Source: a virus
Reading direction: 5' to 3' (one strand)
IMG/VR virus record: IMGVR_UViG_3300024520_000219
Span: 1-37,771 of that record
DNA length: 37,771 bases
Position 1 is the stretch's first letter; every line of letters begins with the position of its first letter. Of this stretch, positions 17,518-34,531 are shown one piece after another. The notes below the pieces were generated by a model that saw only the letters and a program-made list of their open reading frames with translations, did no database searches and was not told where the DNA came from. Position numbers and translations under genes: made by a program.

Positions 17518-18240
17518 TTATCCGACGCCGAGATGTACCGTCACGACGGCGTTGGTGATCTCGTTCGGCGTGGCGGTTACATCGACACATAGTCGATTCC
17601 CGGCAGCCAGTGTCAGATTTGCAGTAGTAGCGGTAAGCGCAGGCGTCGTGACGGTGTTAGCGGTAGCTGTCGCGTCCACCACGGCAGTTTGCAGGTCGTC
17701 GCCAGCGGCACATGCTTCCGTGCCCTGAAGGCGCTCTACCATGATGTCCATCGAACCCGTCGATTCGGCAACGCCCCACACCACGTCGATGCTCTTGACG
17801 GTAACGATCTTGTCGGTGACGAAAAACTGCGTGTCCAGCATGTCGGCAGCAGTTCCGCCCTGCACGAACGATACAGCGAAGTCACCAAGCGTCGTGGTGA
17901 CGATTGGTAGCGTCGCTGTTGCATCGGCAGTCGGCTCACCAAACGACAGCGTCACCTCGAAAGCGTCGTCGGTAGTACCTTCGCCCACGATGGTGTTAGC
18001 GGCCCCGAGATAGAGACTGGAGGCGTCCATCGTGTACTCGACGGTGTCCGAAGTCGTGAACTGGAACTCAAGCTCCGAGTTCGGATCGTCGTAACTCAGC
18101 GTCATGATCGAGTCGTTGGCACCAGCACCAGCGACGAAGCCGTACGCCTGACGTAGAGACTGATCGCCCTGCGGGACGAAGGCTGTTGCCAGCAGTACCG
18201 TTACCGCCAGCGCGAATACGAGGGGTTTGCGTGTTCTCAT
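17518..18240 (-). CDS. Structural-operon protein with signal peptide, 240 aa
   Basis: The first 23 residues form a textbook export signal: basic MRTRK, hydrophobic core PLVFALAVTVLLATAF, then a polar region with no obvious lipobox. The mature part is Thr/Val/Asp-rich and beta-like, with two cysteines in EACAAG and RLCVD. The placement between connector and fibre-like genes would suggest a virion protein, yet virion proteins normally lack export signals. It could instead be exported to alter the cell surface. Confidence 0.6.
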   Translation of the reverse strand: MRTRKPLVFALAVTVLLATAFVPQGDQSLRQAYGFVAGAGANDSIMTLSYDDPNSELEFQFTTSDTVEYTMDASSLYLGAANTIVGEGTTDDAFEVTLSFGEPTADATATLPIVTTTLGDFAVSFVQGGTAADMLDTQFFVTDKIVTVKSIDVVWGVAESTGSMDIMVERLQGTEACAAGDDLQTAVVDATATANTVTTPALTATTANLTLAAGNRLCVDVTATPNEITNAVVTVHLGVG

Positions 18241-21230: not shown

Positions 21231-22508
21231 CTAGCTTTCCGCGATGTCCTCCAACTTGAAGTTGGCTGCGGGGTTGTCGCAGATCAACTGCCAAGCACCC
21301 CACCAGGCAACGTCGAACGTCGCGTTGGTGGTATCGCGGAAGAAGTTGGCCCGCGAGAAGGTGTCAGATACCGGCTGCGGGAACTTGTTCTGTCCGTGAC
21401 CGATACTGAAGGTGGAACGGTCCACACCTACGATGGTGTTCGCTACTGCGAAATCGTCCATGTAGAGGTGGATGCCCGACAGTGACAGTTGCGTCTTGCC
21501 GTCGTCTCCGATGCTCTGCAAGCCCTTCGGGCCGAGCGATCCTGACATGCCGCCGCTCTCACCGTTGGTTTGCACGATGTACCGATCGTTGAGGAACAGA
21601 TCGTAGTAGCGCCGGTAGATGCTCGGATTGGTAATCAGAGCGTCTACGCTTCCGCCACCCTTCAGGCGCGAGTCCAACGACCCCTGAATGATCAGATCCT
21701 CGGTGATGGTGCGGTTGGTGCCGCCGTTGCTGAGAACGACTGATTCCCAGAACTCGTTACCGGCAGTACCGCGATCGATCCCACCGTAGTCGCCTACAAC
21801 AGCAGCAGGATCGTCGTTGTCCACGATTCCGATGATGCCGTGCAAGTGACGCGCCTCGCCCGCTGCTCCGTCCGTGGTGTCCTCACGAACGAAGTAGTCG
21901 CTTGCGGCAGTGCCAGTGATCGTGCCTGAGACGGTAATCGTGTTGGCTACCGTGTCTACGGCGCTGATCGTGCCCGAATCCAGATGCTTGGTGGTGTTGT
22001 CGGTGTCCATGATGTCAACCACCATGCCCTGACGAGCACGGATCGGACGAGACACCGTAACCGCCGACGTGTTGTCCGCTGCCGGAAGGACTGCAAGACG
22101 CCCACGGCCATCATCGAGGATGGCGTTATTGAGATCCTGCGCCCATGCCAAGCGGAACGACTTGTCGTGGAGTTCCACGAACCTCTCGAAAGCGAACTTG
22201 TTGGAACGCGCATCCGAGATACCCTTCCACGTAACGGTGTAGACGCCTGCCATTTCCTGCAAGGCAAACACCGCCTCCGCCGTGTTCGGGTTGAGGTTGG
22301 ACGGCAACGAGCCGCCCTCGTCAATACCTACGATGCCCTCGGAGAGCTGGTGCAGGATCGGTACGATCCATTGCCCACGGCCCCCAAACGGGTGCATCGT
22401 CTTTTTGAACAGATTCCACGTACTGTGGGACTTGTTCATGAGACGTTCGAGGCGAGTCGAACCGTAGTTGTACTTCATCGCCTCGATGAGTTGTGCGGTA
22501 GTAGCCAT
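21231..22508 (-). CDS. Major capsid protein, HK97-type, 425 aa
   Basis: The protein directly follows the scaffold gene, with TAATG overlap, and has the length of HK97-fold capsid proteins. It shows an N-terminal helical arm (residues 6-40), a spine-helix-like region (NKFAFERFVELHDKSFRLAW), beta-rich insertions (TISAVDTVANTITVSGTITG) and a typical end with DALITNPSIYRRYYDLFLND and DTTNATFDVAWWGAWQLICD. It forms the icosahedral shell. The N-terminal arm (residues 9-37) has a clear homologue in the small gene at 29312. Confidence 0.85.
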   Translation of the reverse strand: MATTAQLIEAMKYNYGSTRLERLMNKSHSTWNLFKKTMHPFGGRGQWIVPILHQLSEGIVGIDEGGSLPSNLNPNTAEAVFALQEMAGVYTVTWKGISDARSNKFAFERFVELHDKSFRLAWAQDLNNAILDDGRGRLAVLPAADNTSAVTVSRPIRARQGMVVDIMDTDNTTKHLDSGTISAVDTVANTITVSGTITGTAASDYFVREDTTDGAAGEARHLHGIIGIVDNDDPAAVVGDYGGIDRGTAGNEFWESVVLSNGGTNRTITEDLIIQGSLDSRLKGGGSVDALITNPSIYRRYYDLFLNDRYIVQTNGESGGMSGSLGPKGLQSIGDDGKTQLSLSGIHLYMDDFAVANTIVGVDRSTFSIGHGQNKFPQPVSDTFSRANFFRDTTNATFDVAWWGAWQLICDNPAANFKLEDIAES

Positions 22509-23308
22509 TAGATTTCTTCTTCGTCGGTATCCTCGGTCCAGAAATCCGCAGGTTCAAGATCCTCATCAAGCGCCTTGGACGGAGACGCGATGCCTCCGCT
22601 GCTCGACAGGCCACGACGCGCTGCCTGGACCTCAGCCTTGTTAGCGGAAGCAAATGCGGCCTTCGCGCTCGTCCAGCTTTCATCCAGCATGTCTGGGTAT
22701 GCTGCATCCAGATCGTCGCCCTCGTATGCTGAATAGAGATCCCGTGCGTGGTTGTCAAAGTGCTCTCTCGCACCACTACCTACTTTGAGGCGCTGTGCCG
22801 CCGCCTCGATGGTGGAGTCCAACCGCTGTGTGGCTGACGCAGTAATCAACGGATCGTACCTCTGGGCAGCACGCTGAGACTGCTGGTGCATGAGTCCTAG
22901 CGCACCGATGATCTCCTGATTCCGTGCTTCCATTTGCTGCAAGCGTTGATCGACACCGGCCACCAAGGGATCGAGATGATCTGCCGTCACGTAACCTTGC
23001 TGACGAGCAGCTTCAAACTGATCCTGCTGCACGGCTTGCTGCTGTGCCCGCTGCGCCTGTTGCGCGTAATGCTGCTGTAGGCGCTGCTGGTATGCCTGTG
23101 CTTGCTGATTGACGTTCTGTTGATACTGCGCCACTTGATCCCTTACTGACTGCGTGTCGGCTTGTCTCTGCCTCGTGTAGTCAGCCCTTGGAACGAAGCT
23201 TTGTTTGTATTCACCCCAGGTAGTTTCCACCCCGTCAACGAGGAACCGTGCGTTGTCATCCAGGTTCATCAATGCTGCGGCTTCTGCTACCTGCGTCGGA
23301 TCTGCCAT
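22508..23308 (-). CDS. Scaffolding protein, 266 aa
   Basis: It lies between portal and capsid genes, the usual place for scaffold. Residues 40-150 are a Gln/Ala-rich coiled coil (QSVRDQVAQYQQNVNQQAQA, AQRAQQQAVQQDQFEAARQQ). The middle is helical and the C-terminal 40 residues are Ser-rich then very acidic (EDTDEEEI). The ATG at 23308 has GGAGG five bases upstream and is preferred to the open TTG at 23320. It should guide capsid assembly and leave the mature head. Confidence 0.8.
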   Translation of the reverse strand: MADPTQVAEAAALMNLDDNARFLVDGVETTWGEYKQSFVPRADYTRQRQADTQSVRDQVAQYQQNVNQQAQAYQQRLQQHYAQQAQRAQQQAVQQDQFEAARQQGYVTADHLDPLVAGVDQRLQQMEARNQEIIGALGLMHQQSQRAAQRYDPLITASATQRLDSTIEAAAQRLKVGSGAREHFDNHARDLYSAYEGDDLDAAYPDMLDESWTSAKAAFASANKAEVQAARRGLSSSGGIASPSKALDEDLEPADFWTEDTDEEEI

Positions 23309-23510
23309 TGCGTCCTCCAAGAGTCGCCCAGTAGAGCGTGCCGAGTCCTTCCGATAGTTCCAGCAACGCTGGAGTCGTCCAGTTCGTTCGGTTTGCTTCT
23401 ACCTGCGGAATTCCCTTTGGTGCCTCCACGAGTTCGCCACCACGAGTAGCGAGTGCTTCAGCGTTTCTTGAAACGTCATCAAAACTCTCTCTGTGGCTCT
23501 GTTTGGGCAA
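23256..23510 (-). CDS. Possible small gene between portal and scaffold, 84 aa
   Basis: About 170 bases separate the portal stop and the scaffold start. The only long frame across them begins inside the portal gene end and runs past the scaffold start. The middle (EALATRGGELVEAPKGIPQV then LLELSEGLGTLYWATLGG) looks protein-like. It overlaps both neighbours in other frames, and no good Shine-Dalgarno is visible for the ATG. It may be a genuine small gene or a leader region. Confidence 0.35.
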   Translation of the reverse strand: MPKQSHRESFDDVSRNAEALATRGGELVEAPKGIPQVEANRTNWTTPALLELSEGLGTLYWATLGGRNGRSDAGSRSRSIDEPG

Positions 23511-28300: not shown

Positions 28301-28319
28301 TACTTGCTAATGTCAAGTA
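28301..28319. promoter_or_regulatory. Operator dyad TACTTG-N7-CAAGTA (copy 1)
   Basis: A perfect 6-bp inverted repeat with a 7-base spacer sits between the divergent repressor gene and the rightward operon. On the minus strand it contains TTGACA, a good -35 box for the repressor gene. On the plus strand it lies just before GATAAT, a -10-like box. It matches copy 2 at 30521 in 15 of 19 bases when both are read from TACTTGAC. The probable ligand is the HTH protein at 28042. Confidence 0.65.
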
Positions 28320-28869: not shown

Positions 28870-28892
28870 CCCCTTTAACCACGCTACTTAGG
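28870..28892 (+). promoter_or_regulatory. Repeated leader element, copy 1
   Basis: CCCCTTTAA, four bases, GCTAC, TTAGG and six bases lead into the ATG of the next gene. The same element with nearly identical spacing stands before the gene at 29137. TTAGG may serve as a weak Shine-Dalgarno. The rest may be a promoter or a regulatory leader. Confidence 0.5.
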
Positions 28893-28898
28893 TGCAAA

Positions 28899-29102
28899 AT
28901 GGAGGAGCGCGCAGGAATGGTGTTAATCAACGAGCATGGACGTGAGGTTTTCGTCGTTAGCGAGGAGATAGTGCTAATCGAGCAGGTACAGCCCGTAGCA
29001 TCGCTCCTGTGGGAAGTTACACTTCGTGGGGGAGCCAGCTTCTACATCCCCTGCCTGGAGGACGAGGGCAGCTGCGGCATCATGACACGCCTCGGTATCT
29101 AA
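28899..29102 (+). CDS. Hypothetical small protein, 67 aa
   Basis: The protein is mostly beta-like (GMVLINEHGREVFVVSEEIV, ASLLWEVTLRGGASFYIPCL), perhaps a small barrel. The overall plan (a short strand, 'I..V..I', hydrophobic strand, GG turn) resembles the gene at 29137, so they may be distant paralogues. Both have the same leader element. Function is unknown. Confidence 0.6.
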   Translation: MEERAGMVLINEHGREVFVVSEEIVLIEQVQPVASLLWEVTLRGGASFYIPCLEDEGSCGIMTRLGI

Positions 29103-29106
29103 CATT

Positions 29107-29130
29107 CCCCTTTAAAATAGCTACGTTAGG
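29107..29130 (+). promoter_or_regulatory. Repeated leader element, copy 2
   Basis: CCCCTTTAA, four bases, GCTAC, one base, TTAGG and six bases to the ATG repeat the pattern found 237 bases upstream. The spacers differ, while the boxes are conserved, which is the sign of a functional signal and not of recent duplication. Confidence 0.5.
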
Positions 29131-29136
29131 CCACCC

Positions 29137-29322
29137 ATGAAGTACATCGAACTAGACTCCATGAACCAAACCAAGTGCATGATCAATCTCAACAGCATCG
29201 CCTACGTCGAGGAAATAGGCGGTATATGCGCCATACACTTCGTAGGAGGCTCTGTAGCGAACTTTGACTCCTCCCTCCAAGACTTCCTCTACTCCGTACT
29301 CGACGCACTCAATGAATCGTAG
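29137..29322 (+). CDS. Hypothetical small protein, 61 aa
   Basis: The protein reads as a small beta-barrel (YIELDSMNQTKCMINLNSIA, GGICAIHFVGGSVANF) closed by a helix (LQDFLYSVLDALNES). This layout is seen in small PH- or Sm-like phage proteins, but no family is recognised. Its end overlaps by 11 bases the start of the capsid-arm gene, and that next gene seems to depend on it for translation. Confidence 0.6.
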   Translation: MKYIELDSMNQTKCMINLNSIAYVEEIGGICAIHFVGGSVANFDSSLQDFLYSVLDALNES

Positions 29323-29566
29323 AACCTTCCTACAACGCTCCACAGCAGCCCTCCCCCTCCTAGCCCTACCTACACCCCTATATGCAGCTATAAAGGCCCC
29401 TACAGCCGCCCTGGGGCCTTGCAGCACCTCCCCACGTACCATCCTCGAAGCCCTGAAATACACCTACGGCACCAAGCGGCTTGAGAGGCTCATGGTGCAG
29501 AAACACGATACCTGGAGGCTCTTTGCCACCACAGATGGCCATATACCCCCAAAGGGTTCCTCCTAG
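29312..29566 (+). CDS. Twin-arginine-like signal fused to a capsid N-arm copy, 84 aa
   Basis: Residues 1-25 form a twin-arginine-like export signal: MNRRTFLQ, a hydrophobic stretch AALPLLALPTPL, and YA-A as a possible cleavage site. Residues 46-74 (EALKYTYGTKRLERLM and HDTWRLF) align without gaps to residues 9-37 of the major capsid protein with 18 of 29 identical. Codons differ widely between the two, so the copy is old or came from a related phage. No clear Shine-Dalgarno precedes the ATG; translation is probably coupled to the overlapping gene before. Function is unknown, and export of a capsid-arm piece has no standard explanation. Confidence 0.65.
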   Translation: MNRRTFLQRSTAALPLLALPTPLYAAIKAPTAALGPCSTSPRTILEALKYTYGTKRLERLMVQKHDTWRLFATTDGHIPPKGSS

Positions 29567-29590: not shown

Positions 29591-29693
29591 CCCCAGTACA
29601 CCCCCACCCCTACTTACCCCCACCCCCCCCTCCGTATGGGGTAGGGGGTGGTAGCTGTTGGTTCCTGGGGGTGTAGGGGGTGTGTGGGTGGGG
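29591..29693. repeat. C-rich then G-rich block with opposed G-quadruplex motifs
   Basis: Bases 29601-29630 hold C-runs of 5, 4, 5 and 8 separated by 1, 6 and 1 bases, a G-quadruplex motif for the minus strand. Bases 29667-29693 hold G-runs of 5, 5, 3 and 4 with loops of 4, 5 and 1, a motif for the plus strand. CCACCCCTAC near 29604 can also pair with GTAGGGGGTGG at 29641. The block sits where rightward and leftward genes converge, so it may stop transcription from both sides. The rest of the 29567-29827 gap holds no gene that I can support. Confidence 0.6.
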
Positions 29694-33597: not shown

Positions 33598-33844
33598 CTG
33601 GCCACAGGACATACCCGACGACATAACGGCAGAGGGTGCCGACGACGCGGCTACACGGGCCGACAGACTCTACCGTGAGCACGTACCGCAACAGCAAGTC
33701 CAATGCTACGAGTGCGCTACCTACGTGCCAGCCACTACGGCCCACGTCCTGATAGGCAGCGACGGGGCATTCTGTACCGAGGAATGCCACGACGCGCACT
33801 ACCGCAACCGTGAACTAGACAGACTCGAAAGGTTGGGAAGATGA
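33590..33844 (+). CDS. Small zinc-ribbon-like protein, 84 aa
   Basis: The helical N-terminus starts MNDWPQDIPDD, the same as the chimeric mini-ORF at 33096. The C-terminal half carries CYECATYVPATTAH and FCTEECHDAHYRNR, so C-x2-C and C-x3-C-x3-H, a likely zinc site of MYND/TRASH-like size. The preferred ATG is 33590; the frame is open from 33569. Confidence 0.65.
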   Translation: MNDWPQDIPDDITAEGADDAATRADRLYREHVPQQQVQCYECATYVPATTAHVLIGSDGAFCTEECHDAHYRNRELDRLERLGR

Positions 33845-34161
33845 GCGAACACGCAGCATTACCGTGGAGTTCTTGCCGTGAAGTTAAGCCACCTCACCCC
33901 GATCAAGGAGTTGTCATACGTTCGGACGCCGATACTTGCGACGGCGTTGGCTCGATAGTTGCTCCTCGCGTATGGGGTGACGCCAATGCCGCCTTCATTG
34001 TCCGTGCCTGTAACGCACATGATGAACTCGTAGCGGCGCTGGAGAACGCATGGCGCACGCTGGACAACGCAGCAGACGTGGACGGTGAGTTGTCACAGAT
34101 TCACAAAGTCGAACTCATCGACGCGGCCTGTGCTATCCGCGCAACCCTCGCCAAGTCATGA
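33841..34161 (+). CDS. ACNAHDELV-family hypothetical protein, copy 1, 106 aa
   Basis: The protein has the pattern of a common phage family of unknown function: start with His/Leu-Pro-Trp (HAALPWSSCR), beta region (DQGVVIRSDADTCDGVGSIV), AAFIVRACNAHDELVAALEN and a C-terminal helix. The gene at 34208 is a second copy. It overlaps its neighbours in ATGA junctions on both sides. Confidence 0.65.
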   Translation: MSEHAALPWSSCREVKPPHPDQGVVIRSDADTCDGVGSIVAPRVWGDANAAFIVRACNAHDELVAALENAWRTLDNAADVDGELSQIHKVELIDAACAIRATLAKS

Positions 34162-34211
34162 GCCTACCAAGCAACATACCCGCCAACCCAAACGAAAGGT
34201 TGAGCCAATGA
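34158..34211 (+). pseudogene. Truncated copy of the MSLPSN gene, 17 aa
   Basis: Bases 34153-34194 match 34523-34564 with one difference in 42. The frame (MSLPSNIPANPN) then runs into GAAAGGTTGAGCCAATGA, a copy of the bases before the gene at 33841. It marks the joint of a roughly 370-bp tandem duplication. Confidence 0.65.
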
Positions 34212-34531
34212 ACGAACACACGCCAACACCGCTACAAGTAGAGGCTCCCGGCAAGTACACCGAAGGCTGGCAGATACGGGACGCCTACGGGCAAGTAGTA
34301 GCGCGCAACATGGACGAGGTACGCGCGCACACCGTTGTCACAGCCTGTAACGCCCATGATGAGCTGGTAGAGGCACTGGAAGGCTTGGTATCAATCGCGG
34401 AGATGTACCACAAGGGCGAAGCTGAAGGGCACCTTGATGCCTGTGAGAATCCCGATAACTGCGGCCACTGCCTTGCCATGCGCAAAGTAGAATCTGCGCT
34501 CGCCAGAGCTTCGGCAGGGGTGAAGTCATGA
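34208..34531 (+). CDS. ACNAHDELV-family hypothetical protein, copy 2, 107 aa
   Basis: The core VVTACNAHDELVEALEGL matches the gene at 33841, and the protein shares the whole plan. The two have drifted in the N-terminal half and in the C-terminal helix, where this copy has a Cys cluster (LDACENPDNCGHCLAM) absent from copy 1. The ATG overlaps the stop of the truncated gene. The frame is open from 34085. Confidence 0.65.
   Translation: MNEHTPTPLQVEAPGKYTEGWQIRDAYGQVVARNMDEVRAHTVVTACNAHDELVEALEGLVSIAEMYHKGEAEGHLDACENPDNCGHCLAMRKVESALARASAGVKS

Follow-up and report, generated by a model that had tools for sequence, protein, structure and literature searches.

A short phage reading frame in which a Tat-like signal precedes the N-terminal arm of the major capsid protein

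Why would a phage encode the N-terminal arm of its major capsid protein (MCP) a second time, apart from the rest of the capsid and behind an export-like signal? The question arises from a virus record in IMG/VR, 37771 bp long and classed linear, which was analysed here in full (the window) and in which the structural genes form a leftward block and the small genes a rightward block. The rightward small-gene run comprises frames at 28304/28355, 28565, 28651, 28899, 29137 and 29312. The last of these, which lies outside the structural cluster and on the opposite strand to the MCP gene, encodes the protein MNRRTFLQRSTAALPLLALPTPLYAAIKAPTAALGPCSTSPRTILEALKYTYGTKRLERLMVQKHDTWRLFATTDGHIPPKGSS and is referred to below as the ORF.

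Table 1. Positions of the ORF, its neighbours, the capsid genes of the window and the signal-bearing MCP genes of relatives (the latter in coordinates of the respective locus).
Feature	Position	Strand	Basis or remark
84-aa ORF: Tat-like signal, linker and capsid N-terminal arm	29312–29566	+	ATG 29312 to TAG 29566
Tat-like signal MNRRTFLQRSTAALPLLALPTPLYA	29312–29386	+	motif; hydrophobicity set against that of bacterial enzymes' Tat-like signals
Capsid-arm homology, ORF residues 44–74	29441–29533	+	BLASTP to window MCP; arm HMM
61-aa gene	29137–29322	+	3' end overlaps start of the ORF by 11 nt
67-aa gene	28899–29102	+	same short operon as the 61-aa gene and the ORF
Leader repeat, copy 1 (CCCCTTTAA..GCTAC..TTAGG)	28870–28893	+	2 copies versus 0 expected
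Leader repeat, copy 2	29107–29130	+	
Inverted repeat 3' of the ORF	29592–29680		15-nt arms, 87% complementary; C-rich then G-rich stretch
MCP, 425 aa	21231–22508	-	NCBIfam NF033394, 99.5 bits (cutoff 80); phrog_14242, E=1.5e-24
MCP codons 7–37, arm matched by the ORF	22398–22490	-	
Probable scaffold-type protein upstream of MCP	22508–23320	-	position before MCP; similarity to relatives' equivalent gene
Signal-bearing MCP, L157	2911–4293		
Signal-bearing MCP, L317	2474 onward		
Signal-bearing MCP, L190	2405–3790		
Signal-bearing MCP, L192	2393–3790		
Signal-bearing MCP, L193	2402–3787		

BLASTP aligned residues 44–74 of the ORF product to residues 7–37 of the window MCP without gaps, with 18/31 identical and 23/31 positive residues (E=6e-12). 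The ungapped match to MCP residues 9–37 given in a preliminary description of this DNA (18 of 29 identical) is correct, running from E9 to T37. An HMM of the MCP N-terminus, built from 33 distinct MCPs with the window's own included and the ORF left out, matched the ORF at E=5.1e-9 when about 1 Mb was searched in six frames; the two E-values exclude a chance similarity. The full-length MCP profile, run against all six frames of the window, matched only the MCP and the ORF, the latter over profile positions 6–39, and the same search detected no further part of the MCP, past about residue 39, in the vicinity of the ORF. In the MCP alignment the ORF ends at the point where the strongly conserved motif GGRGQ would start, in agreement with the earlier remark that the frame stops where the capsid fold would go on.

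The ORF accordingly shares with the NF033394 and phrog_14242 families the homologous N-terminal arm, whereas the full-length profiles are matched by the window MCP and not by the ORF. No family in PHROG, Pfam or NCBIfam matches the ORF, so that no unrelated family there explains the arm better, and the IMG/VR relatives found with the ORF are all full-length or contig-cut MCPs. At the level of sequence, the observation of a capsid arm behind an export-like signal is thus confirmed. Since no PDB chain matches the window's MCP family in sequence, we infer the equivalence of this arm to known N-arms. AlphaFold models predict helices across the arm both in the ORF alone (pLDDT 54) and in the MCP (pLDDT 45, insufficient for comparing folds), in each case with low confidence. 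The N-terminal helix of the SPP1 MCP is a binding site of the scaffold, and its N-arm, once released, makes contacts between capsomeres (PMC6813328). What the ORF carries appears to be the equivalent segment from the window's MCP family, but as a free protein, unlike the N-arms known from tailed phages, SPP1 gp13 among them, which are part of the MCP. The product of the gene upstream of the window MCP probably has a scaffold role and is a possible partner of the arm.

The ORF product begins MNRRTFLQR and continues to LYA; the order N-RR-T-F-L is followed by 18 uncharged residues (STAALPLLALPTPLYAAI), and LYA, after which cleavage is putative, is only A-x-A-like. By simple rules the sequence thus has the twin arginine, the moderately hydrophobic uncharged stretch and the A-x-A-like site of a Tat substrate. 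A simple Tat rule, applied to ATG-started frames of at least 40 codons, was passed by one of the 447 frames in the window, the ORF itself, compared with 8 of 4687 in relatives; the rule is lax, with a background of about 0.2%, or roughly 1 in 500 frames. Peak hydrophobicity over 15 residues is 1.59 in the ORF, against 1.67 and 1.35 in the signals of two bacterial loci found through the same MNRRTFLQ start. Those loci encode Gfo/Idh-like and sugar-isomerase-like proteins, which we read as bearing Tat-like signals. Motif, hydrophobicity and the count of frames bear out the Tat-like start described earlier. Homology of the ORF signal to particular bacterial genes was rejected, as the two genome matches share only the Tat-like start.

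The overlap between the 61-aa gene and the ORF would make translational coupling possible; no ribosome-binding site was found ahead of ATG 29312. One copy of a common leader repeat stands ahead of each of the two preceding genes, 28899 and 29137. By eye the products of these two genes look alike, possibly owing to a duplication, and that of the second gives a weak FlbD-like match below the cutoff. The inverted repeat that follows the ORF was considered as a terminator and dismissed, its folding being no better than that of shuffled sequences (z=-0.41). Third-position GC differs within the ORF, at 0.47 in the signal part (first 35 codons) versus 0.74 in the arm part, which suggests a chimera of two joined sequences of different origin.

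Among the 18 residues shared by the ORF and MCP arms, 12 of the 16 that are degenerate differ in codon, which excludes a recent duplication of the MCP arm, as had been concluded before. The two arms are identical at 56/93 nucleotides, with pS 0.77 and pN 0.30 (NG86); the protein was evidently kept while synonymous sites became saturated. In simulations the observed divergence had a likelihood of 0.10 under constraint (omega 0.1) versus 0.0013 under neutrality, a factor of about 80 that is only indicative because the model is rough (assumed omega, equal branch lengths, 31 codons). An old neutral relic of the phage's own MCP is disfavoured by that factor, and the sequences indicate that the ORF arm was constrained for most of the time since its split from the MCP arm. 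This constraint may have acted on the ORF itself or on an MCP that was later the source of a capture. In ungapped BLOSUM62 comparison over 35 residues, the ORF arm scores 96 against the window MCP and 72 against the next best; the window MCP arm reaches only 87 with its own nearest relative, so that the source of the ORF arm is the window's capsid lineage or a close sister. The change of N32 to R at a nearly invariant MCP residue was rejected as a sign of relaxed constraint, the same R being present in the MCPs of L145, L190 and L192.

The preliminary description had proposed a search for the same fusion in related phages, and the outcome was divided. The short ORF has no counterpart: none of 34 whole relative records has a second short arm, each having one arm, that of its MCP, and six-frame profile searches of 315 related loci (about 2.1 Mb with some overlap) found no short arm ORF. 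The short signal-plus-arm ORF is therefore a singleton among these records and loci, a sample that holds many fragments and no close relative, the best MCP being 62% identical to the window's. Phage and plasmid collections gave no match to the ORF, a search of Verrucomicrobiota genomes, run without a positive control, found no relative of it, and exact peptide patterns detected in IMG/VR no orthologue of the 61-aa gene or of the large terminase.

A signal before the arm does occur in relatives, on the capsid protein itself. Five full-length MCPs of the same family (L157, L317, L190, L192 and L193) have a hydrophobic, signal-like segment directly before the arm. The N-termini of two of them read, with a slash at the putative cleavage site, MIRLFMSRWPRLTPVILALLFVIGFDSAAFA/VSTADVIEALKYTYG in L157 and MVTFLLARCPKLAPVLLALLFVLGFEAAAYA/VSVSDVIEMLKYTYL in L317. 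Shine-Dalgarno-like stretches (GGAG, GGGAG, GAGGGG) stand ahead of the outer ATG in L157, L193, L192 and L317; inner starts without a good site are present in L157, L190 and L317 (GTG) and in L193 (ATG), so that the choice of the outer start is not proven for each of these proteins. Comparison of L157 with L317 gives pN 0.24 and pS 0.66 for the signal region, a lower pN than in the first 40 codons after the signal (0.39), as expected of a translated, conserved peptide. All five signals are Sec-like and have no RR. In the tree the five proteins fall into one well-supported group of eight, the other three members of which (L101, L148, L265) have no evident signal, whereas the window MCP pairs with that of L009 elsewhere. 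The ORF arm scores at most 57 (BLOSUM62) against the signal-bearing MCPs, compared with 96 against the window MCP. Given the distance of this clade and the closeness of the ORF arm to the window MCP, signal and arm were apparently joined independently in the window. With five such MCPs in the family, a signal ahead of the arm is not peculiar to the ORF, which stands out in that its arm is separate from the remainder of the capsid protein. Searches of open-access literature found no paper whose title or abstract describes a tailed-phage MCP with a signal peptide. In the structural block of the window, the protein encoded at 17518–18240 (minus strand) begins with a Sec-like signal (MRTRKPLVFALAVTVLLATAFVPQG), and in its C-terminal part it shares 48% identity with the MCP-adjoining protein of L101, which has no signal.

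Our preferred explanation, to which we give somewhat less than an even chance, is that the ORF is a genuine small gene of the phage, encoding a membrane- or export-directed arm peptide that binds arm partners and affects capsid assembly. An export-like, Tat-type signal would have been joined to an N-terminal arm stemming from the phage's own line of capsid proteins; the product would be translated from the last gene of a short operon that runs divergently to the structural genes and, judging by its signal, directed to the inner membrane or exported. The arm part would keep the surface with which the MCP N-terminus binds the scaffold and neighbouring capsid subunits, and the free arm could compete for these partners at the membrane or through it. 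The most likely effect would be to hinder or delay capsid assembly, be it that of this phage early in infection or that of co-infecting relatives; tethering of capsid assembly to the membrane would be a less likely effect. The plus-strand run of small genes with its end-to-start overlap, the Tat-like start, the arm homology, the closeness of the arm to the window MCP, the constraint, the signal-like N-termini on the five relatives' MCPs and the SPP1 precedent count for this explanation. Counted against function are the isolated occurrence, the lack of a ribosome-binding site, the GC3 mismatch and the low-confidence model, as well as the consideration that selection on the arm may predate capture, from its time inside another phage's MCP. 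Moreover, a Tat-exported arm would leave the cytoplasm, the site of capsid assembly. On balance, the interpretation in the preliminary description is partly supported.

The isolated occurrence, the missing ribosome-binding site and the GC3 mismatch also speak for the recent capture of an MCP fragment. The 5' end of a related phage's MCP gene would have been placed by illegitimate recombination behind an open frame where the small-gene run ends; the result may be translated but functionless, its Tat-like start being incidental or taken from another gene. The end of the match at MCP residue 37–39 fits such a capture, and the codon data are compatible with neutral drift since a recent event. A Tat-like start is, however, met by chance in only about 1 in 500 frames by the lax rule, its hydrophobicity lies in the range of the enzymes' Tat-like signals, and five relatives have signal-like segments ahead of this arm. 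As only one case is known, we hold capture without function to be nearly as likely as the best explanation. It is decidedly improbable that the ORF is the 5' end left of an ancestral full, signal-bearing MCP after capsid replacement: such MCPs exist in the family, with the signal preceding the arm as in the ORF, but they form a clade away from the window, resemble the ORF arm far less than the window MCP does and carry Sec-like signals without RR, and the ORF is located away from the structural genes on the opposite strand and is followed by no remains of an MCP. We regard as very improbable a lure for a capsid-sensing host defence, in which the arm peptide would occupy or divert a sensor of the MCP; capsid proteins are known to trigger defence systems (CapRel, PMC9712102), but export would take the peptide away from a cytoplasmic sensor.

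A functional signal-plus-arm protein would have partial parallels. Ccm of SaPIbov5, a capsid-protein homologue that redirects capsid assembly of phage phi12 (PMC8569155), is like the ORF a separate homologue beside the normal capsid protein, and one able to alter assembly, as the ORF product may also be. Whereas Ccm has the complete HK97 fold and makes pentamers, the ORF has the arm only, together with an export-like signal, and is thus no Ccm-type capsid-fold homologue incorporated into capsids. For the anammox encapsulin, an HK97-fold shell protein, a Sec-like N-terminal signal peptide has been proposed (PMC8346489), which makes it comparable to the five signal-bearing MCPs; unlike the ORF it is a full-length shell protein of a cellular compartment and not a phage gene, and its signal is Sec-like rather than Tat-like. 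A broader possibility, which we consider unlikely, is that tailed phages of the window's capsid family bring the N-terminal arm to the host membrane or across it, one clade through a cleavable signal on the whole MCP and the window phage through a separate protein; this would amount to membrane-linked assembly or control of a kind not described for HK97-fold phages. If translated and targeted, the ORF product would represent the capsid-assembly arm as a free protein that bears an export-like signal and could serve to probe the binding partners of the MCP N-arm, and full-length tailed-phage MCPs with conserved signal-like N-termini would make membrane-linked capsid assembly directly testable.

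Two further features lie downstream of the ORF. A 24-nt repeat occurs four times between 30570 and 31424 at a spacing of 258–312 nt, where clear genes are scarce. The adjoining ORFs 33841–34161 and 34085–34531 share a similar stretch, CNAHDELVxALE, and are apparently paralogues (window 33841–34531).
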